Assembly (NCBI GenBank): GCA_017542245.1
Contig: JAFXXN010000037.1
Location: 1-64,000 of the forward strand
Reading direction: 5' to 3'
Length of the DNA: 64,000 nt
From: Lachnospiraceae bacterium
Lineage (GTDB): Bacteria > Bacillota > Clostridia > Lachnospirales > Lachnospiraceae
A program made the translations under genes and the position numbers. Shown here in pieces: positions 44,694-61,339 of the stretch. Every line of letters starts with the position of its first letter. The first letter of the stretch is position 1. The notes under the pieces were generated by a model that had not been told where the DNA came from, did no database searches, and saw nothing but the letters and a program-made list of their open reading frames with translations.

Positions 44694-45983
44694 ATGAAAC
44701 GCAGTGATTTATATATTCTAAAAAATCTGGCAGGAGCAGATTATTTACTGCCGGTCGGACAAAAAGCAGCCATGTTTCCGAAGAGCATCAGGCTTAATGA
44801 AACCGGAAGATTCCTCTGGGAACAGCTTAGGACGGAAAAAAGTGAAGAGGAATTGGCTAAAACCTGCGCAGAACATTTTGAGGTGCCGGATGGACAATAT
44901 GAACAGGTAAAAAACGATGTTCACGTGTTTACGGAAGCTTTATGGGCAAGGGGGATGCTTAAAGCCGATAGTGAAATTTCCGGATCAGGAAACAGTGATA
45001 AGGATATAAAAAAAGATTTATATGAATGCAGATTTGACAGTAAAGACGGCAGTATTAAAGAATTGTCGGAAGAGCTTCCTCACTATGCAGATCTTTTGAT
45101 CGGAGGCCGGATCATATCATTCTGGGGCGACGAAAAATACTTTTCAAAAGAATTCGATATATTTAAAACAGAGGAAAACAAATGCGGTATGAGGATAGAA
45201 ATCATACCGGTAAAGGTGGATGGCAAGACAGATAGCGGACACAGAATGATAGGCTTGGGCAATTGTTCTGAAAATGTTTATAGGGATTATCCTAAATCGG
45301 TTCTGAGGCATCCGGATCTGAATGTTCAGGAATACGAAAACAAGTATGTTCTTTTTCTTTGGTGTATGAAGGATATATATGAGATACACATGAAAAAAGA
45401 CGGCTCGCTGGCCAGGTTTTACTGTAAGGATATCTCCGGATTGGAAGAGGATATATTTTATGCCATAAGACTGGTATTCCTTGTATATGCCTTAAAGCAA
45501 GATCTTATAATGCTCCATTCCGTATCGATATTATATAATGACAAAGCATGGCTTTTTTCTGCTTCATCCGGGACAGGAAAATCAACTCATGCAGAGATCT
45601 GGAAAAAGATATACGGAACTCCTGTTATAAACGGGGATCTGAATTTGATCGGAATAAAAGACGGAACACCTGTTATTTACGGAACACCATGGTGTGGGAC
45701 TTCGGGAGTTTGTGATAATCTTATACATAACCTTGGAGGTATTGTTTTACTGAAACGAGGGGATAATATCATAGAAGAGTTATCGGAAGAACAGAAAATG
45801 CTTTATTTGCAAAAGCGGTTGACATCTCCGGTATGGAATGAAGAAATGCTTGACAAAGAATTAGAAATCTTAAAAGAGATCATTCCCAAAGTATATATTA
45901 AAAGATATTATTGTAATATGAAAGATGAGACGGTGAAACATATCCGTGAGGACATAGATATCTGGGAGAAAAAAATTGAGTGA
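44694..45983 (+). CDS. PqqD-like domain fused to an HPr-kinase-like domain
   Basis: The 429-residue protein joins two domains. Residues 1-90 resemble PqqD-type peptide-recognition elements (M-F-P-K-S-I-R-L-N-E-T-G-R-F-L-W-E-Q-L). Residues about 260-400 resemble HPr serine kinase/PEPCK-type P-loop kinases (H-S-V-S-I-L, S-S-G-T-G-K-S-T-H-A, then V-I-N-G-D-L-N, where classical HprK has D-D). PqqD domains bind leader peptides of ribosomally made peptides, and HprK-like kinases phosphorylate peptides in some lasso clusters. A fused form suggests recruitment and phosphorylation of a peptide or protein; no precursor is seen next to it. Confidence 0.75.
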   Translation: MKRSDLYILKNLAGADYLLPVGQKAAMFPKSIRLNETGRFLWEQLRTEKSEEELAKTCAEHFEVPDGQYEQVKNDVHVFTEALWARGMLKADSEISGSGNSDKDIKKDLYECRFDSKDGSIKELSEELPHYADLLIGGRIISFWGDEKYFSKEFDIFKTEENKCGMRIEIIPVKVDGKTDSGHRMIGLGNCSENVYRDYPKSVLRHPDLNVQEYENKYVLFLWCMKDIYEIHMKKDGSLARFYCKDISGLEEDIFYAIRLVFLVYALKQDLIMLHSVSILYNDKAWLFSASSGTGKSTHAEIWKKIYGTPVINGDLNLIGIKDGTPVIYGTPWCGTSGVCDNLIHNLGGIVLLKRGDNIIEELSEEQKMLYLQKRLTSPVWNEEMLDKELEILKEIIPKVYIKRYYCNMKDETVKHIREDIDIWEKKIE

Positions 45984-46410
45984 GAAAACAGATATAGAAC
46001 AATTATTAAGAAGCGGAACACCTGTTGGTTTCAAACCACAGGGAAACAGCATGCATCCTACTATTGTTAACGGAAGAGACAGCGTAATAATTGAACCGCT
46101 CGGAAACAGAAAGCTGAAAAGAGGGGATGTGGCACTCTTCAGACGTTCAAAAGATGCTCCCAAATATGGAGGAATGCTGGTTCTGCATAGGGTTCACAGT
46201 GTAAAAAAAGACGGCATTTATATGGTGGGAGATAATGAGAAAGAAATCGAAGGGCCTCTGGCCGATGAACAGTTTATAGGTATTATGACAGAGCTGATAA
46301 GAAAAGGTAAACATATCAGTGAGAAAAATCTGTTTTATAGATTTCTGACCCGTTCATGGCTGTTTGTCAGACCATTCAGATTTATTTTTACCGGAAAGAA
46401 CAGGAAGTGA
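45976..46410 (+). CDS. Signal-peptidase-like (S24/S26) protein without a membrane anchor
   Basis: 144 residues with the S26 serine motif G-N-S-M-H-P-T (about 22-28), L-H-R-V-H (about 70, where ER-type signal peptidases have the catalytic His in place of Lys) and G-D-N-E (about 83). There is no N-terminal membrane helix, unlike SipW or LepB; a weak hydrophobic patch lies near the C-terminus. It overlaps the preceding gene by 8 bases and starts at TTG after GGGAG, so it is translationally coupled to the PqqD-kinase. S24/S26 proteins of this type also occur in RiPP clusters, which supports a processing role (inference). Confidence 0.7.
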   Translation: MSEKTDIEQLLRSGTPVGFKPQGNSMHPTIVNGRDSVIIEPLGNRKLKRGDVALFRRSKDAPKYGGMLVLHRVHSVKKDGIYMVGDNEKEIEGPLADEQFIGIMTELIRKGKHISEKNLFYRFLTRSWLFVRPFRFIFTGKNRK

Positions 46411-46414
46411 ATAC

Positions 46415-47152
46415 ATGGCAAGAATATATATGATAGATGATGACCGTGAGGTTCTGGATATAAATATGAAATATTTGCAAGGCTGTGGATATGAAGTGTC
46501 CGGAACAGATAACCCAAAGAGCGGATTACAGGCGCTTAAGAAAAATGGAGCGGATATAGTTATTCTGGATGTTATGATGCCCGGGATGGACGGATTTGAA
46601 CTTTGCAGACAATTAAGAGAGTTTTCTGATGTACCTGTAATTTTTCTTACAGGGAAAAGCAATGAAGATGATAAAATAAATGCTCTCATGCTTGGGGGAG
46701 ACGATTATATTCTTAAACCCTACAGCTTAAAAGAACTGAGGGTAAGGATAGATGTAATACTAAGAAGGATTATGAACATAGCGCAAAAGGATACTTCACA
46801 GAAAGTATCCCAGACTGCGGATTCTTCTTTAAACGGCAGATCCGGTGACAGTATATTATGTATAGGAAAATTAAAGATTGACAGGATTGGTCATAAGGTA
46901 TATTTTGACGGCGAAGAGATAATTTTTACCAACCGGGAGTATGATGTATTTGTATATATGGCCGAGAATCCAGACAGAACAATAACATTTAAGGAACTGG
47001 GCGAGAAGGTTTTTGGAACATATCTGGACTCGGACCGTCAGGGAATTATGGTCATAGTCAGTCGATTCAGGAAGAAAATGAAGGATAATATAGAATTTTC
47101 AAATATGATAGAAACGGTATGGTCTAAAGGCTATAAGTTTATATCAAAATAA
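46415..47152 (+). CDS. OmpR-type response regulator
   Basis: 245 residues: receiver with D-D-D near residue 8, phosphoacceptor Asp in V-I-L-D-V-M-M-P-G, Lys in L-K-P-Y, then a winged-helix domain (R-E-Y-D-V-F-V-Y-M-A and W-S-K-G-Y-K-F). The ATG at 46415 is 4 bases after the upstream stop, so it is coupled to the peptidase gene. With the following kinase it forms a two-component system inside the PqqD-kinase locus. Confidence 0.88.
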   Translation: MARIYMIDDDREVLDINMKYLQGCGYEVSGTDNPKSGLQALKKNGADIVILDVMMPGMDGFELCRQLREFSDVPVIFLTGKSNEDDKINALMLGGDDYILKPYSLKELRVRIDVILRRIMNIAQKDTSQKVSQTADSSLNGRSGDSILCIGKLKIDRIGHKVYFDGEEIIFTNREYDVFVYMAENPDRTITFKELGEKVFGTYLDSDRQGIMVIVSRFRKKMKDNIEFSNMIETVWSKGYKFISK

Positions 47153-47184
47153 AACGGAAGGGTTTGGCATCGGGTGGATAAGAG

Positions 47185-47982
47185 ATGAATTCAAAAATAT
47201 TTGTATCACCTGAAATAGAACACAGCACTATAGAGGAATTGTCCAGGCAGCTGCTAAAGGCAAACAATGAGTTGTATCAGTTACAGCAGGAGAGAGAAAT
47301 AATATTTGCCAATATTTCCCATGATTTACGGGCTCCCATGACAGCTATCAGGAGTGCACTGGATCTGGTTCTAAGTGAAGAGAATGCGTCAGCTGACGAT
47401 ATGCGGAAAACTCTGGAATTGATCGATCGCAGAGCCAAGACTTTGGAGTCTCTCGTAAATGATATGTATTATCTGTATAAGGTAAGCTCAGGAACGAAAG
47501 AAAGCAGCTATGAAGAGATTGAGGCCATACCATTTTTGGAAGAGTATTATTTTGATCTGCAGATAAATTCAAAATATGAAAAATTTAAGCTGGAGCTGGA
47601 GATAGACCCGGATAGTGAATGTCGTTTCAAAATTAATGTACAGGAGATGGTACGTGTACTTGACAATCTGTTTTCAAATGCTGCCCGGTATTCCGGAGAA
47701 GGATCTGTTATTACCCTGAAAGCCGGGAAAAGCAATGACGGAAAAAAAATCAATATTATTATCATGGATAACGGACGCGGTATTCCCAAGGAGAAGCTTC
47801 CCTATATTTTCATGAGAACTTATACGGTATCCGATTCGAGAACGCCGCTTTCAAATGACTCCGGTTCGGGACTTGGACTTGCAATTGTTAAGTCTATAAT
47901 AGAAAAACATGGAGGCACAATTTCCTGTGAGAGTAAAATAGGTGAGGGAACTGAGTTCTTCATATGTCTTCCGATATTATGA
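47185..47982 (+). CDS. Soluble sensor histidine kinase
   Basis: 265 residues with only a short coiled-coil N-terminus (about 10-45), a HisKA domain (phospho-His in I-S-H-D-L-R-A-P) and a HATPase domain (N-L-F-S-N-A-A-R-Y, D-N-G-R-G-I-P, G-S-G-L-G-L-A). There is no membrane helix and no sensor domain, so it must sense a cytosolic signal or a partner protein. Both kinase domains are intact, so it is not a truncated pseudogene. Confidence 0.87.
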   Translation: MNSKIFVSPEIEHSTIEELSRQLLKANNELYQLQQEREIIFANISHDLRAPMTAIRSALDLVLSEENASADDMRKTLELIDRRAKTLESLVNDMYYLYKVSSGTKESSYEEIEAIPFLEEYYFDLQINSKYEKFKLELEIDPDSECRFKINVQEMVRVLDNLFSNAARYSGEGSVITLKAGKSNDGKKINIIIMDNGRGIPKEKLPYIFMRTYTVSDSRTPLSNDSGSGLGLAIVKSIIEKHGGTISCESKIGEGTEFFICLPIL

Positions 47983-48840: not shown

Positions 48841-48957
48841 AATGTCTCCCGATTTTTAAGTATTGCTTTTTGTATCATAATATAAAAAATGCGGGTATGT
48901 CAAGAATAAAACTGCGAAAATACGACACAAAATAAAATTTTTCGTCATGTCAGAATC

Positions 48958-48985
48958 TTGTATATTTCTACTGTGATGATATACT
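48958..48985 (+). promoter_or_regulatory. Promoter region of the sugar-acid operon
   Basis: TTGTAT (48958-48963), 16 bases, TATACT (48980-48985). Just upstream, 48922-48950 holds an imperfect inverted repeat (ACGACA with TGTC and TCGTC halves around an AT-rich centre) that could be the AraC-type operator. The operator is a guess. Confidence 0.4.
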
Positions 48986-49082
48986 GTTATATATAGACTG
49001 AAGTAATACCGGATCTGAGTATTCCGGAGGATTTGTTGCCGGACGGGAAGACTTGGTAGCATATAATGTCAGGGAGGAAAAG

Positions 49083-50285: not shown

Positions 50286-50386
50286 TTAGTATTTAATACA
50301 AAACTTTTTAAATTATTACCGGATTCTTTTTGATGAAAGAAGAAGTGGTATGGAAAGAATGAAAATGAAAGGATGTCTTAGATTAT

Positions 50387-51400
50387 ATGAAAACTGTTTT
50401 GATCAACAAACCGTTTGAAATCGGTCTTACGGATACTGAAATGCCTGTACCTGGAGAAGGCGAGGCTTTACTTAAAGTTCTTTATTGCGGTATATGCGGA
50501 GCTGATGTGGCGAGTTACACCGGTAATCAGCCGTTTACTACATATCCGAGAATCCCGGGACATGAATTCAGCGCTCAGATAGTTTCTATTCCCGAGAATG
50601 ACAAGGGACTTAAGGCAGGGGACATAATTACGGCAAATCCATATTTTAATTGCGGCAAATGCTATTCATGTCAGCGTGGTTATGTAAATTGCTGTACCGA
50701 TAACCAGACTATGGGTGTCCAGAGAGACGGAAGTTTCAGGGAATATATTGTTATGCCTATTGAGAGAATATATGATGGAAAAGGGCTTTCGGCAAAGGAA
50801 CTTGCTTTAGTTGAGCCGTTTACGATAAGCTATCATGCACTTCACAGAGCAAAGGTAAATGAAGGGGATAAAGTGCTGGTTATAGGTGCCGGTCCTATAG
50901 GTTTATTTGCTCTTATAGCTGCAAAAGCACAGGGAGCAGAGGTTTATGTAGCTGATGTGCTTGATGGGAGACTTGAGAAAGCTCTTCATTTTGGCGCTGC
51001 CGGAGTTATAAATTCGAAGAAGACCGATATAAAGGAAGAAGCCATGAAGATAACAGGCGGAAACGGCTTTGATGTTTGTGTTGAGGCTTGCGGGCAGTCG
51101 GTTACTTTCCTTAACTGTATTGATTGTGCGGCATTCGCGGCTAATATTATCCTTATCGGAAACGGAAAGAAGGAGACTACATTCCTGCATTCGATTCTTC
51201 TTAAGAAAGAACTTAATGTATTCGGAAGCCGTAATTCGTATGCAGGAGATTTTAAGGCAGTCATCGATCTTATCGCATCCGGAAAGGTGAAAGTTCTTGA
51301 TATGGTAAGCGCAGTTTATTCTGTAGATGACGCAGCAGAAGCATTTAAGGCACTTGCAGAAAACGACGGATCGTTAGCAAAGGTGCTCATTGAATTTTAA
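50387..51400 (+). CDS. Zinc-type sugar-acid dehydrogenase (L-galactonate dehydrogenase-like)
   Basis: 337 residues of the MDR sorbitol/threonine-dehydrogenase type: catalytic zinc C-G-I-C-G-A-D and G-H-E-F, a structural zinc set of four cysteines (C-G-K-C-Y-S-C then C-C within 11 residues), and the Rossmann loop G-A-G-P-I-G-L-F-A. Context (uxaB and uxaA next) suits an LgoD/YjjN-like role, oxidising L-galactonate at C5 to tagaturonate. Sorbitol or L-gulonate dehydrogenase is the alternative. The ribosome site is AAAGGATG, about 10 bases upstream. Confidence 0.75.
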   Translation: MKTVLINKPFEIGLTDTEMPVPGEGEALLKVLYCGICGADVASYTGNQPFTTYPRIPGHEFSAQIVSIPENDKGLKAGDIITANPYFNCGKCYSCQRGYVNCCTDNQTMGVQRDGSFREYIVMPIERIYDGKGLSAKELALVEPFTISYHALHRAKVNEGDKVLVIGAGPIGLFALIAAKAQGAEVYVADVLDGRLEKALHFGAAGVINSKKTDIKEEAMKITGGNGFDVCVEACGQSVTFLNCIDCAAFAANIILIGNGKKETTFLHSILLKKELNVFGSRNSYAGDFKAVIDLIASGKVKVLDMVSAVYSVDDAAEAFKALAENDGSLAKVLIEF

Positions 51401-51462
51401 AAATCAATCAGAAAATCAATCGGAGAACCGTCCCGGTGATTGAAAAAGAAAGGCATTATAAT

Positions 51463-52788
51463 ATGAAAGAGAAAGTTATTCAGTTTGGAGAAGGCGGATT
51501 TTTAAGAAGTTTCGTAGATGTATTCATTCATAAAATGAATGAGCAGGGGCTGTTCGGTGGAAAAGTTGTGGTGGTACAGCCTATTGCTAAGGGGCTGATA
51601 CCTGTGATAAATGAACAGAAGGGTGTATATCATCAGTTTTTGCGTGGCGTGGATAACGGAAAGGTAGTTGATGAATGTATTAAAGTTACATCCATCTCAA
51701 GAGGCGTTGACCCTTATACCGATTATGCGGAATATCTGAAGCTTGCCCATAATCCTGATATGAGAGTAATTATTTCAAACACGACGGAAGCAGGTATTGA
51801 ATATCTTGGAACCGAGTCAATTAATGATGCTCCGCCAAAATCTTTCCCGGCTAAACTGACCGCACTTTTGTATGAGAGATTTAAAGAGGGGCTTCCGGGA
51901 TTTATAATTCTTTCCTGTGAACTTATAGATAATAACGGTAAAGAACTATTGAATTGCGTATTAAAGTATGCCGAACTTTGGAAACTTCCGGATGAATTTA
52001 TCTCATGGGTTAAGGAAGAAAATGACTTTTGCAATACATTGGTGGACAGAATATGTACCGGATATCCGAAAGATGAGGTCGAAACTTTGACAAAACGTCT
52101 CGGAGAAGAAGATAAGCTGATGAATACGGCTGAGATTTTTCATCTTTGGGTAATCGAGGGTAACCATGAGGATGAATTCCCCCTTCAGAAAGCGGGTATA
52201 AACGTAATCTGGACTCAGGATGTAAAGCCTTATAAGAAGAGAAAGGTAAGGATTCTTAACGGCGGACATACATCCATGGTGCTTGCAGCACGTCTTTATG
52301 GTTTGTCGACTGTGAAGGAATGTCTTGATGATGAACTTATCAATAAGTATCTGAACAAAGTTATCTTTGATGAGATAATTCCCACATTGGGTAACGAAAA
52401 AGAAGACATACCTTTTGGAAAGGCCGTACTTGAAAGATTTTCAAATCCTTTCGTAAAACATCAGTTGCTGAGTATTGCGCTTAATTCGGTCAGCAAGTTT
52501 AAGGCAAGAGTTCTTCCGACAATAATTGAATATAATGAACAAAGGGGCTGCCTTCCAAAATGTCTCACGTTCTCACTGGCAGCACTTATAGCTTTTTACA
52601 GAACGGATGAAACTAACGATAATGAAGAAATCATGGCATTCATGAAAACGGCAAGCGTTGCTGATATTTTAAAGAAAGAAGAGTACTGGGGCAGGGATCT
52701 TTCGTTTATGGAAAAAGAAGTTGAAGGTTATTATGAATCCATAATGAAGGACGGAGTCGGAAAGACAATAGAAGGATTGTTATCCTAA
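51463..52788 (+). CDS. uxaB: Tagaturonate reductase (altronate oxidoreductase)
   Basis: 441 residues of the mannitol-dehydrogenase superfamily: Q-F-G-E-G-G-F-L-R-S-F (cofactor loop), N-T-T-E-A-G-I-E (usual in UxaB) and K-x-R-x-L-N-G-G-H-T (active site). It reduces D-tagaturonate to D-altronate with NADH. The ATG at 51463 follows AAAGG; a GTG at 51436 precedes that site. Neighbouring altronate dehydratase supports the call over fructuronate reductase, which is encoded separately at 19573. Confidence 0.88.
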   Translation: MKEKVIQFGEGGFLRSFVDVFIHKMNEQGLFGGKVVVVQPIAKGLIPVINEQKGVYHQFLRGVDNGKVVDECIKVTSISRGVDPYTDYAEYLKLAHNPDMRVIISNTTEAGIEYLGTESINDAPPKSFPAKLTALLYERFKEGLPGFIILSCELIDNNGKELLNCVLKYAELWKLPDEFISWVKEENDFCNTLVDRICTGYPKDEVETLTKRLGEEDKLMNTAEIFHLWVIEGNHEDEFPLQKAGINVIWTQDVKPYKKRKVRILNGGHTSMVLAARLYGLSTVKECLDDELINKYLNKVIFDEIIPTLGNEKEDIPFGKAVLERFSNPFVKHQLLSIALNSVSKFKARVLPTIIEYNEQRGCLPKCLTFSLAALIAFYRTDETNDNEEIMAFMKTASVADILKKEEYWGRDLSFMEKEVEGYYESIMKDGVGKTIEGLLS

Positions 52789-52819
52789 AAGAATCAGTTT
52801 ATATTATCCGGAGTTATTT

Positions 52820-54202
52820 ATGGGCATTAAAATAATTAAAATTCATCCTGACGACAATGTGGGTGTAAATGTTGAAACAGGACATAAAACAGCGCTTAGA
52901 GATATTGCGGAAGGTGAGGATATAATAAAATACGGCTTTCCGATAGGACATGCTACGAAAAATATTTCCGAAGGTGAACATGTTCATACACAAAATTTAA
53001 AAACAAATTTAAAAGAAAAGCTGGACTATGTATACAGTCATAAGGTTTTTGAAACGGAAAAGCCTATGGGCAGGACCATCCGGGCATATTTACGTCCGGA
53101 TGGGAACATAGGCATAAGAAATGATATATGGATCATTAATACGGTTGGTTGTGTCAACAAGGTGGCTGAAGCTATAAGTAAAAGAACAGGGGCACTTTTT
53201 TTCCCGCATCCTTATGGATGTTCGCAGTTGGGCGATGACCATCAGCTTACTCAAAAGATACTGAAAGGATTGATTAAACATCCGAATGCAGGTGGCGTTT
53301 TAGTTCTGGGACTTGGGTGCGAAAACAATAACATCGGAGTATTTAAGGATATACTGGGACCTGTAGATGAAAGAAGAGTAAGATTTTTAAATGCTCAGGA
53401 TACGCAGGATGAGATTGAAGAAGGGGTCAGGATTGTTGAAGAATTAAAAGAAATCGCGTCGCAAGATACAAGGCAGAACGTATCTGTTTCAAAGCTAAAG
53501 GTCGGACTAAAGTGTGGAGGATCCGACGGATTTTCCGGTCTGACCGCAAATCCTCTTATAGGACAGTTTTCAGATTACCTGATAGCTGAGGGTGGAAGCA
53601 CTGTACTTACAGAGGTACCCGAAATGTTTGGTGCTGAAACAATTCTGATGGACAGATGTATTGATGAACATGTGTTTAATAAAACAGTTACCCTGATAAA
53701 TGACTTTAAGGATTACTTTACAAGACATGGGCAGACCATATATGAAAATCCATCACCCGGAAATAAAGCTGGTGGGATAACCACTTTAGAAGAAAAATCA
53801 CTCGGGTGCACCCAGAAGGGCGGAAGAGCTCAGGTTACGGACGTGCTTACATATGGGGATACAGTAAAAGTTCCGGGTCTCAACTTATTAAACGGTCCCG
53901 GAAATGACATGGTGGCCGTAACTAATCTGACGGCAGCAGGATGTCATCTCATCCTTTTTTCGACCGGAAGAGGAACACCTCTCGGAGCTCCTGTGCCCAC
54001 TATAAAGGTAGGGACAAATAATTCAATATCCGACAGAAAACCTAACTGGATAGACTTTAATGCCGGGCCGCTGCTCGACGGTACAGACCTTAAGGAAAAG
54101 TTTATTGACTATGTTTTAACAGTGACAGAAGGAACCGAAACCAACAATGAGAAAAACGGATATCGTGAAATTGCAATATTTAAGGATGGAGTAACATTAT
54201 GA
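52820..54202 (+). CDS. uxaA: Altronate dehydratase (SAF domain plus catalytic domain)
   Basis: 460 residues: an N-terminal SAF domain (about 1-70) and the large UxaA/GarD catalytic domain (G-N-I-G-I-R-N, H-P-Y-G-C-S-Q-L-G-D-D, G-L-K-C-G-G-S-D-G-F-S-G, E-K-S-L-G-C-T-Q-K-G-G). It dehydrates D-altronate to 2-keto-3-deoxygluconate (KDG). Galactarate or other sugar-acid dehydratases share this fold; uxaB beside it makes altronate the best guess. Its last bases overlap the next start as ATGA, so the two are translationally coupled. Confidence 0.87.
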   Translation: MGIKIIKIHPDDNVGVNVETGHKTALRDIAEGEDIIKYGFPIGHATKNISEGEHVHTQNLKTNLKEKLDYVYSHKVFETEKPMGRTIRAYLRPDGNIGIRNDIWIINTVGCVNKVAEAISKRTGALFFPHPYGCSQLGDDHQLTQKILKGLIKHPNAGGVLVLGLGCENNNIGVFKDILGPVDERRVRFLNAQDTQDEIEEGVRIVEELKEIASQDTRQNVSVSKLKVGLKCGGSDGFSGLTANPLIGQFSDYLIAEGGSTVLTEVPEMFGAETILMDRCIDEHVFNKTVTLINDFKDYFTRHGQTIYENPSPGNKAGGITTLEEKSLGCTQKGGRAQVTDVLTYGDTVKVPGLNLLNGPGNDMVAVTNLTAAGCHLILFSTGRGTPLGAPVPTIKVGTNNSISDRKPNWIDFNAGPLLDGTDLKEKFIDYVLTVTEGTETNNEKNGYREIAIFKDGVTL

Positions 54203-55116
54203 GCCAATATATCATAATTGATGCCCATGTACATCTCTGGGAAAAACAGGAAGGATGTGTAAACGGAGAAAGCATTTACGGCATAGGTAACGGAAAGAGT
54301 AACTTCTGCGGTGAGACGAGACAGATGATGCCGCCATATTTGGAGGATAATAAGAATACTGCTGAACGGCTGATTGCCAATATGGATTATGCGGGGGTAA
54401 ATGCATGCGCTGTTACACAGGAGTACATTGACGGAAATCAAAACGAATATCTTCTTAAGGTTAAAGAAAAGTATCCGGACAGATTCAGGATAACTGCATT
54501 ATTTGAGGATGAAGGATATCGTGGAAAAGGATTCAGTCCGAATGGGTTGGGAGATATAGATTTAAAAGATTTTGATGGTATAAAAATATGTGCGGGCCGT
54601 TTAAAAAATTCTGATCTAACTGCCATAACAGATGTTTTTAAAAAGGCGCAGACGGCAGGAAAATACATATCTATTGATCTGGCAGATGGGGATGAACAAA
54701 CTGAAAGTCTCCAAAAAGTAATAGATGAATGTCCGGATCTAAAAATTGCAATAGGCCATTTTGGTATGGTAACTACGAAAGGCTGGCAGAAGCAGATAGA
54801 ACTTGCAAAAAACAAGAATGTTTTCATAGAAAGCGGAGGACTTACATGGCTTTTTCATAAGGAATTCTATCCGTATCCATCCGCTATTGATGCAATTTTA
54901 GAGGCGAGAGATATCTGCGGAATGGAAAAGCTTATGTGGGGAAGTGACTATCCACGTACTATGACGGATATAACGTATAAGTCGGCGATACGTTTTATAC
55001 TGGAAACGCCTAAAATGACAGATGAAGAAAAGGCAGCTTTTTTAGGAAAAAATGCAGAGAAATTCTATGGATTTAAGAATCTTGTTCCGCTTCCTGAAAT
55101 TGATAATATGCTATAA
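54199..55116 (+). CDS. Amidohydrolase-type sugar lactonase
   Basis: 305 residues, TIM-barrel amidohydrolase of the L-fuconolactonase/2-pyrone-dicarboxylate lactonase group: D-A-H-V-H-L-W at the N-terminus, G-H-F-G-M in the middle, and W-G-S-D-Y-P-R near the C-terminus. It should open the lactone produced by the aldose dehydrogenase upstream. It lacks the extra metal ligands of classical amidase-type members. Coupled to uxaA by a 4-base overlap. Confidence 0.78.
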   Translation: MSQYIIIDAHVHLWEKQEGCVNGESIYGIGNGKSNFCGETRQMMPPYLEDNKNTAERLIANMDYAGVNACAVTQEYIDGNQNEYLLKVKEKYPDRFRITALFEDEGYRGKGFSPNGLGDIDLKDFDGIKICAGRLKNSDLTAITDVFKKAQTAGKYISIDLADGDEQTESLQKVIDECPDLKIAIGHFGMVTTKGWQKQIELAKNKNVFIESGGLTWLFHKEFYPYPSAIDAILEARDICGMEKLMWGSDYPRTMTDITYKSAIRFILETPKMTDEEKAAFLGKNAEKFYGFKNLVPLPEIDNML

Positions 55117-55170
55117 TATATTATAATTTTTAAGATGATTGAAAATACTTGTTAAAAACTGGGGGTAAAT

Positions 55171-55608
55171 ATGTTAAAAGGAATATCACCCATGCTTACA
55201 CCGGAACTGTTAAAGGTGCTTTGTGAAATGGGACACAGTGATACTATAGTTATAGCGGACGGTAATTTCCCTGCTGAGACCATGGGGAAAAATTCGATTG
55301 TAATACGTATGGACGGACATGGAGTTCCGGAGATTTTAGAGGCAATCCTAAAAGTTTTTCCATTGGATCAGTATATTGAAAAACCGGTAAGTCTTATGGA
55401 AAGAGTACCGGGAGATAATGCAGATGTATCTATCTGGAAAAAATACGATGAAATAGTTTCAAAAGAAGAGGCAAGAGGTGTAAAAGTTATCCAAAAACTG
55501 GAACGTTTTGCTTTTTATGAGGAAGCAAAGAAAGCATATGCGATAATTGCGACATCTGAAACCAGCCAGTATGCAAATGTTATCCTGCAGAAGGGTTGTG
55601 TGTTATAA
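55171..55608 (+). CDS. fucU: RbsD/FucU-type sugar mutarotase
   Basis: 145 residues. The conserved G-H-S-D-T-I-V-I-A-D near residue 20 and the C-terminal T-S-E-T-S-Q-Y-A-N-V are FucU signatures. FucU interconverts alpha and beta anomers of L-fucose and related sugars; L-galactose is the 6-hydroxy form of L-fucose, so it fits the start of the pathway here. GGGGGTAA lies 5-6 bases before the ATG. It is the last gene of the operon; the repeat element (copy 2) and a terminator follow at once. Confidence 0.85.
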   Translation: MLKGISPMLTPELLKVLCEMGHSDTIVIADGNFPAETMGKNSIVIRMDGHGVPEILEAILKVFPLDQYIEKPVSLMERVPGDNADVSIWKKYDEIVSKEEARGVKVIQKLERFAFYEEAKKAYAIIATSETSQYANVILQKGCVL

Positions 55609-55699: not shown

Positions 55700-55729
55700 A
55701 ACGATGACAGGCGAAAACCTGTCATCGTT
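55700..55729. terminator. Terminator between fucU and the lasso-type exporter gene
   Basis: ACGATGACAGG pairs with CCTGTCATCGT around a 6-base loop. The plus strand then reads TCTATTATAAT; the minus strand has a T-run. The right arm overlaps the stop codon of the minus-strand ABC gene. Confidence 0.8.
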
Positions 55730-57383
55730 CTATTATAATCTTTTTGTTTTCAATTTTCAGTTCAGCCGTACAATATTTTAAAATGCTCTTTCGATGTGTA
55801 ATGATGAGGCAGGACGGTCTGGGATTAAGCTGTTCTAATCCTTTGATTACCTTTTGTTCTGTTGCTTCATCAAGTGCGGAAGTCGCTTCATCAAAGATCA
55901 GCATGGGAGATTTTCTCACAAATGCACGGGCTATGGCTATACGCTGAGCCTGACCTTCTGACAATCCGAGCCCTTTTTCTCCTATTACGGTATTCATACC
56001 ATCAGGAAGATTACTTATGAAATCATAAGCGGAAGCAAGCTTCAGTGCTTCTTCAAGTTCAGCATCTGTTGCGTCATGACGGCCGGAAAGAAGATTGTCT
56101 TTTATTGTTCCGCTGAATAAAGTGTTTCCCTGGGGAACATACGCTACATACTTTCGTATACCTGCATCGGCTTTCTGCTCTTCATTTTTCTGATTGAAAA
56201 AGGTGATGGTTCCTTCATCAGGCTTTACAAAAGACATGATCAGGCGAATGAGAGTAGTTTTTCCGATACCGGATTCTCCGATAACGGCTGTTGATTCTCC
56301 GGGAGAAATAGAAAATGATACTTTATCAAGTACCTTTTCCTGATCATTGTATCCAAAGGAAAGGTTAGATGCTTTAACTCCAAGTGTAGTCGTATCTATG
56401 GTTACTTCTGTTTTTTCTTCAGGAGGTATTTCAGAGAGTTCCATAATTCTTTCTGCAGAAGTAAAAAGGGCTACGACGGTTGGAATCTGGTGAGCAAGGT
56501 TTATTATAGGAGTCTGTACTCTGTTTACCAGAGTAAGGAAAACTGACATTGTTCCGTAGGTGATCAAGGATTTTGATATCTGAATAGCACCGTAAGTAAA
56601 TGCAGACAGATAACCTATCTGGAAAGCGAGACCTATGGATGTTGTGCCGAGCAGGCTTGCTTTAGTCCTTCTGAACACCCATTTAAATCTTTCCGATCTC
56701 AGCTCGGAAAGACGTGCTGTTGAATAATCTTCGTTAGCAAATGATTTTATGATAAGCAGATTGGCAATACTTTCCTGGAGAAAAGATCTGTAGGCCGATT
56801 CTGATTCCTGTACTTTCTTCTGAAGGGTTTTAAGCCTTCTGGCAAACAGCCATGATACTACGACAGATACAGGTGCCACGATTAAAGCGAGAAGAGCCAG
56901 AAAATGCGAATAAAAGAAAAGAGTAAAAAAAACAAGTACCAGCTCTATGAAAAGCTGTATGATCCCGGGAATTGTATTTATTACACCGTCAGCAATATGA
57001 CCGGCGTCGGTTGAAAGCCTTGTTACGATATCTCCGGAATGATACTTGGAAACAGTATGCCAGGAAGCCCGTATAATTTTATCATAGACATTTTTCCGGA
57101 TACCGAAGGAGATTTTCTCATTTAACAGCGTAGAAAGAAGTGAAGCTATCGCAGTGATAATCTGTATTCCGAGCATAACGATTATATATAATATTATAAT
57201 ACCTGTAAGGCTCAGACCTTCAGCTGCACCATCGATAATATCCTTGGAAAGTATAACGGTATATAATGATGCGCCCGATATGCCCAGACTGAGAGCCAGC
57301 ATAAGGACGATCTTTATTCGATGACCTTTAGCATATCCCAATATCCATTTAATACAATTCAGATACTTTTTAATTCTATCCAT
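55722..57383 (-). CDS. ABC exporter of the lasso-type cluster
   Basis: The 553-residue half-transporter has six membrane helices (about 20-300) and an ATPase domain: Walker A G-E-S-G-I-G-K-T-T (about residue 370), signature L-S-E-G-Q-A-Q, Walker B L-I-F-D-E-A-T-S-A-L-D. There is no C39 peptidase domain, so cleavage must be done by the separate protease, as in lasso clusters. It should export the mature peptide and provide self-immunity. It directly abuts the PqqD-like gene, in the same operon. Confidence 0.88.
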   Translation of the reverse strand: MDRIKKYLNCIKWILGYAKGHRIKIVLMLALSLGISGASLYTVILSKDIIDGAAEGLSLTGIIILYIIVMLGIQIITAIASLLSTLLNEKISFGIRKNVYDKIIRASWHTVSKYHSGDIVTRLSTDAGHIADGVINTIPGIIQLFIELVLVFFTLFFYSHFLALLALIVAPVSVVVSWLFARRLKTLQKKVQESESAYRSFLQESIANLLIIKSFANEDYSTARLSELRSERFKWVFRRTKASLLGTTSIGLAFQIGYLSAFTYGAIQISKSLITYGTMSVFLTLVNRVQTPIINLAHQIPTVVALFTSAERIMELSEIPPEEKTEVTIDTTTLGVKASNLSFGYNDQEKVLDKVSFSISPGESTAVIGESGIGKTTLIRLIMSFVKPDEGTITFFNQKNEEQKADAGIRKYVAYVPQGNTLFSGTIKDNLLSGRHDATDAELEEALKLASAYDFISNLPDGMNTVIGEKGLGLSEGQAQRIAIARAFVRKSPMLIFDEATSALDEATEQKVIKGLEQLNPRPSCLIITHRKSILKYCTAELKIENKKIIIER

Positions 57384-57647
57384 TTAGATGAAGTCCGCCT
57401 TTTCCAACTTTTCAAGAAATTCCATAACGGATTTTTCACATTCCTGAGGAGATACTTCGTATTCTTTGAGAAGCCTGTTTATTATTTCTTCAACAGAAAT
57501 CTCATCCTTTAACATATCCCAGATAACGTTGCCGACTCCTTTAATAATATAGTAATTTCCTGTATTAAAATCTATCATGGCTTTTTCGCCGTTCAGTACG
57601 GTTACATCAATATCTCTTTTGAATTTCACAATTCTTTTTTTATCCAT
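57384..57647 (-). CDS. PqqD-like leader-recognition protein (lasso B1 type)
   Basis: 87 residues of the PqqD/RRE fold: basic first strand, D-F-N-T-G-N-Y-Y-I-I, V-G-N-V-I-W-D-M-L, then helices. In split lasso systems this B1 protein binds the leader peptide (its Tyr/Trp-x-x-Pro motif) and hands it to the B2 peptidase. It overlaps the upstream Asn-synthetase gene by 22 bases and is therefore translationally coupled. Confidence 0.85.
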   Translation of the reverse strand: MDKKRIVKFKRDIDVTVLNGEKAMIDFNTGNYYIIKGVGNVIWDMLKDEISVEEIINRLLKEYEVSPQECEKSVMEFLEKLEKADFI

Positions 57648-59611
57648 TTGTCTACCCCGATAAATTGTTTATAGTTTTCAAGGAAACAACCGAGTGCAGA
57701 AGCTACAGAACCTTCAGCGACAAGCTGTTTGTCTAAATTATATTCTTTTTCCGTCAATTCTTCAATAAGAAAATCAATTTTTTTTCGGTCGAGGTATTTA
57801 TCCAGCTCGTGTGATTTGAGATAACGGAAAAGAGTGCCTTTGGTGTCATCCCAATAGGTATTTGCTCTGAACAGATAATCGGATGCCTGGTTTCCGCGGC
57901 GGATCAGATTATTTAATATATCATCGCTGACAATACCTTTCAGGTAATCTCTTACAGCTCTTCTTTCTTTACCGTTTCTGACAAAGCAATCTATAGGAAG
58001 CGCCATACAGAGTTCGAGGACATCTTTTGACATTGTCGGATCAAGATAAATGGCACCGGTGAATAAACTCTGACAGGTTTCGAAATAGCATGTATGCTGT
58101 GTTACCAGAGGATGAAAAATATATCCTTTCCATTGCTTAAAGGAATCAATCGCGTTACAGCCTAAAGAATTACTGTGCTTACGCTCCTGCTTTTTCAAAT
58201 TATGCTTTTTTATAAGATCTTTTCTTACGTAACTGGAAAAGCTTTTTCGGCACATCTTGTTTATTCTTACTTTAAAATAATACTGTAAAAGTCTGGGTCT
58301 GTTGACATGATACAAACGGCAGAAAGCAGCTGCTTCCTTTAATGAACTAATAAAATGAAAGCCATGATTTTTCTGGTAAATATATGTGGTTATATTCCCG
58401 TACGATATGGTCGCATTTCCTGCTTCGCCGGTAAATACGATTGAAATACCGTCTTTTTTTACTTCTTCGTCCATTGAATAAATATAAGGTGCGTTTAAGA
58501 CAGGTTTTACAGGCTGTGCAAAACGACGCATATACTTTTCGGGTTCACTGAAGGATGTCAGATCTTTGGTTGTGATGAAACGACACTCGATATTAGGATG
58601 TCTTTTTTTATTTTTTAAGACATCTATAGCTTCGTTTTCAACCTCCAGACCTGACGTATCACACTTATATTCGGGACACGGAATCTGAGTATAACTGTAT
58701 AAGGACTGACCTGATTTGGCGAGTTCTTCAGCAGCTACAGATGCAACAGAGGACGAATCCAGTCCGCCGCTTAAAAAAACTCCGTGTTTGTTTCTGGCTC
58801 TCAGCATTTTTTTACAAGATTTAATGAATGTTTCGCGGAATAATTTTCCGTATTCTTCATCGGAAGACAGTTTAAGAGGTTTTACGGATTTGAGAGGATT
58901 CCAGTATTCTATGTTTTTTAACGAAAACTCAGGATGTTCCAAGTCTGTTTTATTTGGATCGATCTGTACATAATGTCCCGGTTCAACACGAAAAACGTTT
59001 TTATATACTGTACGTCCGTTAATCTTCTCTGTATCGGGAGTTAAATCCATATATGCTGAACATATCCATTCTTCATCAAGTTGAGGTTCTTTTAAAAGTG
59101 CGGATATTACATGAAGCGTAGAGGAATAATACAGCTTTCGATTTACAACCGTATAAGCCAGGTGGCGGCCGGAGATATGATCGGTAATAAGATATACACA
59201 ACCTGTATTTTTGTCGGATATTACTATGGAATATGCGCCTTCCAGCATATAAACAAAAGAAATACCGTAATTGGTATATGTTAAGAATGCAAGCTCTGCG
59301 TCACCTTTTTGTGAAAGGACTGAGCCGGAGAAATTTTTTTCTTTAACCAGTCTGTCTATCAGTTCCTGCCTGTTATACAGGAAAATGTCTGCATTAAAGA
59401 TAATGTTTCTGTTATCAGTTGTTATCGGAGATATATCGTTTACTGCTTCAGGTGTAAAATACTGGTGAGAACATGAGAAAAAAAGCCCGGGGTCACTAAA
59501 GGAATCTGTTCTGTCGGTAACGAAGGCAGAGGATACCTGATTGATAATATTTATTTCATCTGTAGATATTTCATTATGATCGAAATCAATTATTCCTGCT
59601 ATTGCTGCCAT
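57626..59611 (-). CDS. Asparagine-synthetase-like lasso cyclase
   Basis: 661 residues: an N-terminal glutaminase-like domain that starts M-A-A-I-A-G-I and so lacks the catalytic Cys that normally follows Met, and a synthetase domain with the ATP-pyrophosphatase loop S-G-G-L-D-S-S (about 279-285). In lasso systems this C protein adenylates an Asp/Glu side chain and closes the macrolactam ring with the core N-terminus. The start ATG shares one base with the stop of the kinase gene (TAATG) and has GGAGGA before it, so the two are coupled. The length is a little above the usual 580-640. Confidence 0.88.
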   Translation of the reverse strand: MAAIAGIIDFDHNEISTDEINIINQVSSAFVTDRTDSFSDPGLFFSCSHQYFTPEAVNDISPITTDNRNIIFNADIFLYNRQELIDRLVKEKNFSGSVLSQKGDAELAFLTYTNYGISFVYMLEGAYSIVISDKNTGCVYLITDHISGRHLAYTVVNRKLYYSSTLHVISALLKEPQLDEEWICSAYMDLTPDTEKINGRTVYKNVFRVEPGHYVQIDPNKTDLEHPEFSLKNIEYWNPLKSVKPLKLSSDEEYGKLFRETFIKSCKKMLRARNKHGVFLSGGLDSSSVASVAAEELAKSGQSLYSYTQIPCPEYKCDTSGLEVENEAIDVLKNKKRHPNIECRFITTKDLTSFSEPEKYMRRFAQPVKPVLNAPYIYSMDEEVKKDGISIVFTGEAGNATISYGNITTYIYQKNHGFHFISSLKEAAAFCRLYHVNRPRLLQYYFKVRINKMCRKSFSSYVRKDLIKKHNLKKQERKHSNSLGCNAIDSFKQWKGYIFHPLVTQHTCYFETCQSLFTGAIYLDPTMSKDVLELCMALPIDCFVRNGKERRAVRDYLKGIVSDDILNNLIRRGNQASDYLFRANTYWDDTKGTLFRYLKSHELDKYLDRKKIDFLIEELTEKEYNLDKQLVAEGSVASALGCFLENYKQFIGVDKWIKKEL

Positions 59612-60501
59612 TATTCCTCCAGATAATTTCTGATGATATTACAGATTTCAACTGCTGTTTGTTTACCGGACGGACGTTTTATACGGATCATTTCTATTTC
59701 TCCGGCGAGTTTCAGACATTCGTTTTTAATATATACGGGATATTCCGATGCCCGGAATAGGGATGCCATAAAGAGTGAATTTAACAGAACGGAAACCTTT
59801 TCAAAACCGGAAACTACGCCGTATTCAACGGAATCTGAATCGGTAATTTCCAATTTAAAAAATTTAGAAAGCTTTCTGGGATATGGATCAAAACTTTCTG
59901 TGTCTATAGATGCAAATTTGTCCTTTAATTCATCGATATAGACCAGGTTATTTCCGGTGCAGAATGAATCTGCGATATCCCTGCACATCTTTTGCAGAGG
60001 CAGCCCGGGATAGACCATAAAACCGTCTTTAACAGAAGTAAATGCAATATCATCCGAAAGAAGCTTATAACCGTTTTTGATGAGTGATATCGCAGTAGTT
60101 GATTTGCCGGCGCCGCTGTGACCGGAAATGAGAAAAGCACGATTACCGTGAGAGAGTGCTGAACAGTGAATTCCGAGACAGCCTCTCTGAAACATCAAAA
60201 AATTAATACACCATCCCAAAAGATATGCCGACAGTAGGTTGTTGGAAGTATCATTCTTTGGAGCAGCATATATACTGTTTCCGTTTTCAATCAGAAAACT
60301 GCCGGCATCGGTACTGAACCATATCCTGTTTTCGGAGAATGAGTAATTAGAGTTTGAGGATCCGGTTTCGGGTAAAAAATGATAGCTTGTTTTTATCGTT
60401 ACATCCGAGTTTACAGGAGAATTATATAATAGTTTTTCTGATTCATATAACTGTATGTCAGATTCAAAATATAAGCCGTAAATGTAATAATGATACAACA
60501 T
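59611..60501 (-). CDS. HPr-kinase-like peptide kinase
   Basis: 296 residues with the HprK-type P-loop G-H-S-G-A-G-K-S-T (about 129-137) and the acidic pair L-L-S-D-D-I-A-F, but no HPr-binding N-terminal domain. Relatives in lasso clusters phosphorylate the precursor's C-terminal serine. The minus-strand AAAGGA lies 6 bases before the ATG at 60501; the frame extends to 60516 without support. It opens the four-gene minus-strand operon, divergent from the precursor gene. Confidence 0.83.
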   Translation of the reverse strand: MLYHYYIYGLYFESDIQLYESEKLLYNSPVNSDVTIKTSYHFLPETGSSNSNYSFSENRIWFSTDAGSFLIENGNSIYAAPKNDTSNNLLSAYLLGWCINFLMFQRGCLGIHCSALSHGNRAFLISGHSGAGKSTTAISLIKNGYKLLSDDIAFTSVKDGFMVYPGLPLQKMCRDIADSFCTGNNLVYIDELKDKFASIDTESFDPYPRKLSKFFKLEITDSDSVEYGVVSGFEKVSVLLNSLFMASLFRASEYPVYIKNECLKLAGEIEMIRIKRPSGKQTAVEICNIIRNYLEE

Positions 60502-60530
60502 AAAAAATCCTTTCATTTTTGATAGAAATG

Positions 60531-60559
60531 TTGCAGATATACATATAGTATGTTAGAAT
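60531..60559 (+). promoter_or_regulatory. Promoter of the precursor-peptide gene
   Basis: TTGCAG (60531-60536), 17 bases, TAGAAT (60554-60559). It gives a leader of about 30 bases before the ribosome site. Confidence 0.6.
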
Positions 60560-60597
60560 GACTTCAGTTTTTAAAAAATATATTGGAGGTAATAATC

Positions 60598-60804
60598 ATG
60601 AAGAAATGGGAAACACCTGATATGCTTGTCCTTGATGTTAAGGAAACTGCCAGTGGCGGTAAGAAATATAATAAAGTTGACGGTAACCGTTGGGATGAGT
60701 TAAAGATGGAACATACTTTCACTTTTTGGCCCAGTGGAGATTACGAGGCAGATCCTGAATCAGAGGAACTTTATCAGAAGTACTTAAACGGAGAGCTTAA
60801 GTAA
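60598..60804 (+). CDS. Lasso-type precursor peptide
   Basis: A 68-residue peptide starting M-K-K-W-E-T-P, which carries the aromatic-x-x-Pro recognition motif (W4, P7) of lasso leader peptides. The probable leader ends near T17-A-S-G20-G21. A ring could form from G20 to D28 (9 members) or G21 to D28 (8 members), but the usual Thr at -2 does not fit either choice exactly. After the ring there remain 40 residues, rich in acidic and aromatic residues, ending in Lys. The start follows GGAGGT by 7 bases; an in-frame TTG at 60583 is inside that site. It has its own promoter and terminator. Confidence 0.75.
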   Translation: MKKWETPDMLVLDVKETASGGKKYNKVDGNRWDELKMEHTFTFWPSGDYEADPESEELYQKYLNGELK

Positions 60805-60823
60805 TACTTAGGTAATTCATTAC

Positions 60824-60857
60824 AAGGCGGATTCTTTTGAGTCTGCCTTTATTTTTT
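60824..60857. terminator. Terminator between the precursor gene and the peptidase gene
   Basis: AAGGCGGATTC (60824-60834) pairs with GAGTCTGCCTT (60839-60849), with G-U pairs, followed by TATTTTTTG. It ends the precursor transcript. Confidence 0.8.
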
Positions 60858-60871
60858 GTGATTTTTACCGT

Positions 60872-61339
60872 TTAATTTCTGAAGGTACTTACAACAGCAT
60901 ATCTGTCCAGGCCATCTATCTTTCCGGTGACTATAAATTTACCCCATCTAAGCCACGCATGAGCGGCCATTTCACCGGAATCTTCCTGGCAAACTCCCAG
61001 ATATAATGTATAGTGGAGTTTCTTTTTCCTTAAAAGCTTTCCGGCGGTCAATGCTCTTACCAGACACTTGCTTTCCCATTTTGTATAGTTACATACACAG
61101 AGGACGGCTCGGGCAACTTTCTGCACATAATCGAATCCATCCATGGATTCTTCCTCAGAGGATTCCTCTTTTTCTGTACCCCAGTTTTTTTTCATTCGTT
61201 TAGGTTTGAAAATGAGCAGTCCCAATCTGTAAAAAGCAGAGTAGAAGAAAGCACGCACTATCATGAAAAAGCATTTATTATCATGAGCGAACCGGATTGC
61301 TCTTAATGGAAGACATCCCTGTTTTTTGTCTTGGGACAT
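60872..61339 (-). CDS. Lasso leader peptidase (transglutaminase-like, B2 type)
   Basis: 155 residues of the transglutaminase-like protease family that cuts lasso leaders. Catalytic Cys in E-S-K-C-L-V-R-A-L, His in A-A-H-A-W-L-R-W, and the Asp in K-I-D-G-L-D-R-Y are present. It is on the minus strand, convergent with the precursor gene and separate from the B1-C-kinase-D operon. A GAAGGGAGAT ribosome site precedes the ATG. Confidence 0.85.
   Translation of the reverse strand: MSQDKKQGCLPLRAIRFAHDNKCFFMIVRAFFYSAFYRLGLLIFKPKRMKKNWGTEKEESSEEESMDGFDYVQKVARAVLCVCNYTKWESKCLVRALTAGKLLRKKKLHYTLYLGVCQEDSGEMAAHAWLRWGKFIVTGKIDGLDRYAVVSTFRN

Follow-up and report, generated by a model that had tools for sequence, protein, structure and literature searches.

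A 64,000-nucleotide stretch of the genome of a Lachnospiraceae bacterium (GenBank assembly GCA_017542245.1, contig JAFXXN010000037.1, positions 1 to 64,000; hereafter the window) encodes a lasso peptide cluster with a dedicated HprK-like peptide kinase, and our analysis indicates that this is probably a Lachnospiraceae-type locus, of a family whose precursors have a threonine at position -3 and a long tail, that is governed by its own two-component system. Under this reading a histidine kinase (HK) and response regulator pair at 46.4–48.0 kb would act on a 29-bp element and thereby switch the precursor promoter. The leader-binding protein B1 would bind the precursor leader via W4xxP7xM9 and present the leader peptide to the kinase, which would phosphorylate a serine in the tail, most likely Ser46 of a Ser-Gly motif. 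B1 and the peptidase B2 would then cut behind Ser19 so that Thr17 stands at -3, the cyclase would join Gly20 to Asp28 to give a 9-residue ring around a long acidic tail, and the ATP-binding cassette (ABC) protein would export the finished peptide. The genome in question comprises 4.72 Mb in 203 contigs (completeness 97.06%, contamination 8.58%).

The cluster itself had been described in an earlier note on this DNA, and all six genes are present where that note placed them, between 55722 and 61339: exporter, B1, cyclase and kinase, a divergent precursor gene and a convergent B2 gene. The coupled minus-strand operon that it proposed is borne out by the junctions (a gap of 0 nt between exporter and B1, and overlaps of 22 nt between B1 and cyclase and of 1 nt between cyclase and kinase), and the designation as a lasso cluster with its own HprK-like kinase is upheld by gene content, by a recurring gene order and by the active-site residues of the kinase. 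A cyclase, the B1 recognition element (RiPP recognition element, RRE, where RiPP denotes a ribosomally synthesized and post-translationally modified peptide), a B2 peptidase and a precursor are encoded together. In a search of solved structures B1 matches TbiB1 (5v1u) and a lasso PqqD chaperone (9x90), the kinase matches HPr kinases alone, weakly and over 33–34 residues, and B2 gave no match; C92 and H127 of B2 are invariant in an alignment of six B2 proteins. No peptidase domain is found among the 14 Pfam rows for the exporter. The cluster is thus confirmed, as one of a known kind. What makes it most interesting is found outside 55722–61339, coordinates that miss the two-component pair at 46.4–48.0 kb.

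Relatives were collected with B2 because the kinase alignment was too variable for such a scan; a whole-protein query with the kinase found no relative among the genome contigs. The B2 search of genome contigs gave 191 matches, of which the best 80 were kept, so that with the window there are 81 loci (labelled L below), 80 of them conditioned on having B2. Annotation with hidden Markov models (HMMs) found a kinase in 63 of the 81 and a precursor in 35. Nine of the 81 loci, the window among them, have B2, the antisense precursor, the kinase and the cyclase in this order; one of the nine, L076, was entered by hand after its precursor was spotted by eye. The nearest loci are L075, L076, L100 and L102 (B2 identity 59–67% over the best segment, which is partial for L100 and L102), and the L076 kinase is 50% identical to that of the window. 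L100 and L102 derive from one metagenome-assembled genome, and each of the pairs L037/L080, L040/L085 and L041/L148 is a single contig, so distinct precursor sequences were counted once. Because the precursor HMM missed some precursors (that of L076, and others recovered through leader-HMM ranking and an element scan), the resulting 58 precursors are an incomplete set. Among 200 genomes of the family, the kinase search gave 19 with E ≤ 1e-6, 8 of them strong, counting the window's own genome, in which there is one strong match and one weak match (1.2e-5). A precursor query gave 9 of these genomes at E ≤ 0.1, some surely by chance; the precursor alignment has one match in the window's own genome and matches in 14 of 397 genomes, among them G203, G285, G336, G358 and G380. 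On plasmids the kinase is seldom found (13 records, the best-ranked at 28.9% identity).

The window precursor has a leader of residues 1–19 (W4..P7.M9, T17), a predicted ring G20–D28, and a 40-residue tail (29–68) that contains W44-P45-S46-G47 and ends ...NGELK. The 58 distinct precursors share the outline consensus M-K-x-[WF]-x-x-[P/A]-...-L-x-[IV]-x-x-T-A-x-G and were aligned on the leader Thr, an anchor pattern that fits 58 of 58. In this alignment Gly stands at T+3 in 45, and Asp or Glu stands at T+11 in 40 (mean 11.6 and maximum 25 in 5000 shuffles) and at T+10 or T+11 in 53 (shuffled mean 20.9, maximum 36). An acceptor at position 7–9 of the core is thus present in the window precursor, with D28 at position 9. 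Thr at -2 is a rule with known exceptions according to the available text of PMC10368454, which gives rings of 7–9 residues; here Thr17 is at -3 if the core begins with Gly20, and -3 is the family-wide placement, as it is in the part of PMC7533575 on rumen relatives, whose cores have 21–42 residues. Were the Thr at -2 as in other lasso peptides, the variable residue 19 would be core position 1 and the ring would have 10 residues. The rule stated in PMC10368454 speaks for that register, but residue T+2 is variable (the commonest letters occur in 9 of 58) whereas T+3 is the conserved Gly, a ring of 10 falls outside the range given in the same source, and PMC7533575 assigns T(-3); we consider the -2 register improbable and retain T(-3). 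The window locus has all the traits of the Lachnospiraceae long-tail lasso peptides: the W..P leader, T(-3), G1, D8/9, a tail Ser and a kinase gene. The earlier note had held that the product is not predicted by any family, a claim that does not survive: the precursor fits those of PMC7533575 as described there (W..P leader, T(-3), G1, D9, tail Ser) and also matches the paeninodin family NF033524 weakly (20.2 bits, the cut-off of 27 not being reached). Since leader motif and T(-3)/G1/D9 register are shared with the PMC7533575 family, the product belongs to a family already described in silico.

A conserved 29-bp element lies upstream of the precursor gene. It consists of the half-sites T[CG]T[AT][AT]CA and TG[TA]TAGA, whose starts are 11 bp apart, and among 40 distinct sites positions T4, C7, A8, T13, G14 and A17 are invariant. 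The WalR/PhoP consensus likewise has half-sites at 11-bp spacing. In leave-one-out scoring, 44 of the 58 precursor upstream regions reach at least 16.9, a line drawn after the scores had been seen, and near-copies reduce these 44 sites to the 40 distinct ones; all 14 upstream regions with a training site are high-scoring, as are 30 of the 44 without one. The controls reach at most 14.8 (1051 upstream regions of other open reading frames (ORFs), that is, of any open frame of at least 150 aa in the 80 loci, in gene sense) and 13.4 (1160 shuffles). Over the 64 kb of the window, 60508–60536 is the best site at 23.3, the runner-up at 11.4 being that site read on the opposite strand. Scanning the 80 loci gave 74 matches of at least 13, of which 38 have, by position, no listed precursor beside them. 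Several of these 38 fall at listed precursors on duplicate contigs, and eight, in L082, L088 (two), L092, L106, L115, L118 and L125, point to small ORFs with a leader that are not on the list. No convincing precursor was found at the rest of the 38. The element matrix is thus usable as a precursor finder, having turned up eight further small ORFs in seven loci. The idea that the element marks a genome-wide regulon is rejected for now, with two of the four other core matches (L156 and L159) examined. In L137 the precursor element (7858–7886) lies upstream of an exporter-B1-B2-kinase-cyclase run; the enzymes may therefore share precursor control in some genomes.

The two-component pair was recognized by its kind and its synteny. 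With the regulator beside the L037 cluster as query, window positions 46349–47149 score 260 bits, and with the L041 histidine kinase as query, 47182–47979 score 171 bits; the other two-component pair in the window scores 152 (regulator) and 85 (kinase) against the same queries. The window HK is 66% identical to the HK beside the L076 exporter. In L076, the closest cluster, the exporter is followed by HK, response regulator, signal-peptidase-like and PqqD-domain genes and then by a glycosyltransferase-like gene (by eye), and the window has a PqqD-domain/signal-peptidase-like pair in the same order as L076 17374–19341; among 89 sources searched, only L076 has a close pair of this kind. Other regulators of the genome score about equally per alignment (157.8, against 155.1 and 104.6 in two pieces for the window regulator), so it is by synteny and by its HK that the regulator is assigned; among 97 NCBIfam families, the 25 best all stayed under their cut-offs with the regulator. 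The pair at 46.4–48.0 kb is the likely cognate system of the lasso locus, and the domain make-up of its regulator is that of WalR/PhoB-type response regulators.

The kinase carries the H-G-G-GKS-DD active-site pattern of HprK-like lasso kinases: H112, G127, G130, G132, K133, S134, D150 and D151 are invariant in 23 sequences, and their spacing is the same as in the BsfK motif quoted in PMC10368454. The tails of the 58 precursors end in Ser in 22 cases and contain an S-G or S-A dipeptide in 29. We compared these classes with a kinase tree of 86 rows, 44 of them without a labelled precursor (L037, L040 and L041 were left out). The window kinase falls inside an 11-row clade of which 10 rows are labelled Ser-Gly. 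Among all rows with either tail label there are 5 changes on the tree, with kinases beside the one tail class tending to group apart from those beside the other. With labels restricted to strict adjacency (24 rows) there are 3 changes, as against a mean of 6.2 in label shuffles that ignore relatedness; values as low occurred in 3 of 1000 shuffles, or in 6 of 1000 once four near-copies were removed. Seven loci with two labelled kinases were compared, and in five of them (L080, L099, L101, L117 and L129) there is one of each label, with one kinase-precursor pairing in L099 and in L129 spanning about 2 kb; in L038 and L085 both kinases have the same label, one L085 label being doubtful since it was assigned by distance. 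The pairing of kinase clade and tail is an association and not proof of the site. It predicts a branch of lasso kinases that acts on an internal Ser-Gly, and in the window precursor the likely target, judging from the sequences, would be Ser46, which lies with Gly47 18 residues past the ring Asp. The mass gain of 80 Da that the earlier note expected is still a sensible prediction. A C-terminal Ser would not be its site, since the precursor ends ...NGELK, and phosphorylation of the PadeK/ThcoK type is rejected on this ground. In a separate observation, L080/L037, L099, L101, L117 and L129 have two or three lasso kinases and precursors that differ in tail class, alongside which a single B1 and a single exporter were found; these are possible combinatorial lasso loci.

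Several findings count against the reading proposed here. The precursor, B1 (NF033536, 75.4 bits against 80), cyclase (top NCBIfam the lasso cyclase NF033535, 162 against 525) and kinase (PF07475, 28.6 against 33.3; HprK_rel_A, 47.6 against 200) fall under some curated family cut-offs. The predicted core of 49 aa exceeds the 21–42 given in the available text of PMC7533575, its 40-residue tail is long, and 18 of the 58 precursors lack Asp or Glu at T+11. Fourteen of the 58 precursor upstream regions have no high-scoring element, although several of these (L038-4859, L086+13433, L119-4088 and L122-1578) probably belong to second genes of tandem pairs. A 17-nt core of the element has five exact matches in 4.7 Mb, and two of the other four were examined (L156 and L159) and have no precursor. 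The two-component pair lies 8 kb from the exporter. Tail labels are unclean on the full tree, with 6 changes for Ser-Gly (shuffled mean 19.0) and 11 for C-terminal Ser (15.7); rows L106, L121, L112, L128, L131, L038_3759 and L085_12733 have a C-terminal Ser outside the main clade of that class, and 5 of the 58 precursors have both tail features. Finally, Ser-Gly is present in 9 of 9 aligned nearest precursors, but its column shifts by one or two.

How the HK might receive its signal is suggested by its N-terminus. As HisKA begins at residue 40 and HATPase at 154, the first 39 residues (MNSKIFVSPEI...) are the only other region of note. Of 30 distinct HKs, the window's included, 29 carry the motif [WYF]xxPx[LIVM] in the 62 residues ahead of the H-box (34 rows, three of them without a recognizable H-box: two truncated and one an ordinary HK of the window); the exception is a Paenibacillus HK. 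Two further HKs from a family-wide search carry it, one with Tyr, and the two next-best ordinary kinases have no motif in the 70 residues before the H-box. In the window's own genome the motif is present in 1 of 24 testable HisKA proteins, namely the window HK, 5 HisKA proteins being outside the test. In an alignment of 18 HKs, all chosen from motif carriers, only two of the first 18 residues, F6 and P9, never vary; they are as constant as the catalytic residues, while their neighbours differ between sequences. With starts chosen by Shine-Dalgarno sequence, 16 of 22 HKs have the motif at the N-terminus compared with 16 of 920 other ORFs (Fisher 2.5e-21), and at least two of those 16 ORFs (in L104 and L114) are precursor-like. 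When 3861 ORFs were ranked with a leader HMM, ranks 1–15 were small leader-like ORFs and rank 16 was an HK; a rank test of the HKs against 1089 other ORFs of at least 200 aa gave 3.7e-10, with 10 HKs in the top 50. Among the 200 family genomes, each of the 6 with an HK match of at least 160 bits also belongs to the 8 in which the lasso kinase match is strong, with cut-offs set after the lists had been seen and 13 HK candidates per genome.

These observations led us to a tentative addition to the reading above, one that we hold to be somewhat doubtful: the HK N-terminus of about 40 residues, its only input region, would imitate a lasso leader and be bound by B1, and competition between leader and HK for B1 would tell the precursor promoter how much precursor is at hand or how far maturation has gone. 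While [YWF]xxPx[LIV] is present in the sequence, the exposure of the N-terminus and its binding by B1 are predictions; B1 may bind it. In the available text of PMC10368454, YxxPxL is a conserved leader motif and B1 aids both phosphorylation and cleavage, but Ala at Y(-17) and at L(-12) leaves phosphorylation unaffected, which weakens the motif as a sole determinant. The conservation, the enrichment, the ranking and the co-occurrence with lasso kinases argue for mimicry; against it, the motif fixes three positions only, HK scores with the leader HMM are low (at most 7.2 bits) with ranks down to 1756, 6 of 22 HKs fail the N-terminal test (probably from start choice), ORF-level statistics overstate independence because the HKs are related, B1 was not found in the stretch examined for 8 of 29 HK loci, and the neighbouring PqqD-domain protein could be the binder instead. 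It is a little more doubtful still that the maturation machinery acts, through B1 sensing the leader mimic, as the signal receptor that controls precursor transcription via the 29-bp element. We found no description of such an HK-RRE loop among the titles and abstracts that our literature searches listed.

As to the organization of transcription, shuffled upstream regions often score 8–9, and we argue the precursor promoter from position and conservation: the other eight loci of the same order have a promoter of 8–11/12 just downstream of the same element, although in L075 and L102 it is only the second-best pair. In 7 of 9 loci a terminator in precursor sense satisfies the rule, and in L080 and L101, which fail, a hairpin is visible by eye. 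Of the three independent transcription units that the earlier note had proposed, the precursor unit, with its own promoter and terminator, holds up; the independence of B2 is less secure, as B2 is co-directional with the kinase and no B2-sense terminator separates it from the kinase in the window. Three separately controlled units are nonetheless a real possibility, if short of an even one: kinase-sense pairs of 10/12 lie within the precursor upstream region in five of the nine loci and a separate B2 promoter is plausible from the sequence, but the kinase-sense pair of the window is weak (8/12, where shuffled upstream regions mostly give 8–9). Somewhat less probable is a non-contiguous operon, in which one B2-kinase-cyclase-B1-exporter transcript would run antisense through the precursor, and precursor and enzymes would repress each other. 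Since no B2-sense terminator between B2 and precursor passes the rule in the window, such a transcript is possible there; none passes in L099, L101 or L103 either, and the stems of the other five loci range from 5 to 11 bp, being a mere 5 bp in L075, L100 and L102. The precursor is antisense among co-directional genes in the nine loci, as it is, in a different gene order, in L078, L084, L094 and L105, and operons of this kind are known (PMC7154746). The 10/12 kinase-sense pairs, which are those of L076, L080, L099, L101 and L103, and the B2-sense stems of L076 (8 bp) and L080 (11 bp) argue against read-through. A precursor promoter switched by the two-component pair remains the reading that we prefer.

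The closest known systems are the rumen Butyrivibrio and Lachnospira clusters, which in the available text of PMC7533575 share with the window the leader motif, T(-3), G1, D8/9, long cores, a conserved Ser in the C-terminal region, HPr-kinase genes and nearby regulators of WalK/WalR/SrrA/ResE type. They are listed there in silico, and the text available describes no promoter element, kinase/tail classes, leader-like HK or antisense precursors, and neither 'promoter' nor 'divergent' occurs in the main text of PMC7533575. Paeninodin-type clusters (PadeK, ThcoK and SyanK; available text of PMC8498205) likewise combine an HprK-like kinase with the essential lasso genes, but their kinases act on a C-terminal Ser, whereas the window precursor ends in Lys and its kinase falls in the Ser-Gly clade. 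The bsf cluster, as far as PMC10368454 describes it, is alike in kinase motif and spacing, in a phosphorylation that is not C-terminal (predicted here) and in the help that B1 gives the kinase; BsfK acts on ring Ser3, whereas the predicted ring of the window peptide has no Ser or Thr, the candidate residue being one of the tail. With the leader-like sensor N-terminus and the specific promoter element, it becomes directly testable how gut and rumen lasso producers adjust the amount of precursor to their maturation enzymes and to what signal their two-component systems respond; if the proposal is true, leader mimicry between HK and B1 would couple peptide maturation to precursor transcription.

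Table 1 Features of the lasso locus and its surroundings in the window.
Feature	Position	Strand	Remarks
PqqD-domain protein	44694..45983	+	C-terminal P-loop (by eye); PF05402 44.1 bits
Signal-peptidase-like protein	45976..46410	+	TIGR02228 29 bits (cut-off 51.85)
OmpR/PhoB-type response regulator, lasso-associated kind	46406..47152	+	PF00072 and PF00486; start chosen by eye
Soluble histidine kinase	47185..47982	+	265 aa; N-terminal leader-like F6-V-S-P9-E-I; HisKA from 40, HATPase from 154
Kinase-operon terminator	55731-55698	-	15-bp stem
ABC exporter	55722..57383	-	553 aa; membrane and ATPase domains; PF00664 121 bits (cut-off 28), PF00005 105.5 bits (25)
B1, PqqD-type leader-binding protein (RRE)	57384..57647	-	87 aa; PF05402 60.9 bits (cut-off 23.4)
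Lasso cyclase C, asparagine-synthetase type	57626..59611	-	661 aa; SGGLDSS motif; PF00733 62.3 bits (cut-off 21)
HprK-like peptide kinase K	59611..60501	-	296 aa; open frame extends to 60516; identified by active-site residues and tree
Conserved 29-bp element, predicted response-regulator site	60508..60536	+	two half-sites, 11-bp period; ends on precursor -35 hexamer (TCCTTTCATTTTTGATAGAAATGTTGCAG)
Precursor promoter	60531..60559	+	TTGCAG-17-TAGAAT, TGn, 8/12; ends 38 nt before ATG
Lasso precursor A	60598..60804	+	68 aa; ribosome site TTGGAGG
Precursor terminator	60824..60849	+	11-bp stem, then TATTTTTT (T-run); no terminator called in B2 direction
B2 leader peptidase, transglutaminase-like	60872..61339	-	NF033537 78.5 bits (cut-off 33); PF13471 75.5 bits
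Candidate B2 promoter	61435-61407	-	9/12; scan gave 32 sites against 22.6 expected

Between the two-component pair and the exporter, 47986–55608 holds an AraC-type regulator and sugar-acid genes, presumably of hexuronate type; 55171–55608 matches a fucose mutarotase model at 137.5 bits, just under the cut-off of 141. L076 has nothing at this place, and the segment is an apparent insertion or rearrangement.

A nucleotidyltransferase of the NTP_transf_5 family (PF14907) is encoded at L037 16857–18023 and in 29 other rows above 250 bits (L080 and L085 being duplicate contigs), in many relatives directly upstream of B2; it has no match in the window. By analogy with pseudomycoidin, this enzyme may modify the phosphate. 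The Clostridium loci L104, L113, L114 and L120 encode several small leader-bearing ORFs (MKKWxxPEL-like), a multi-precursor layout unlike that of the window, and L113 has seven kinase matches.

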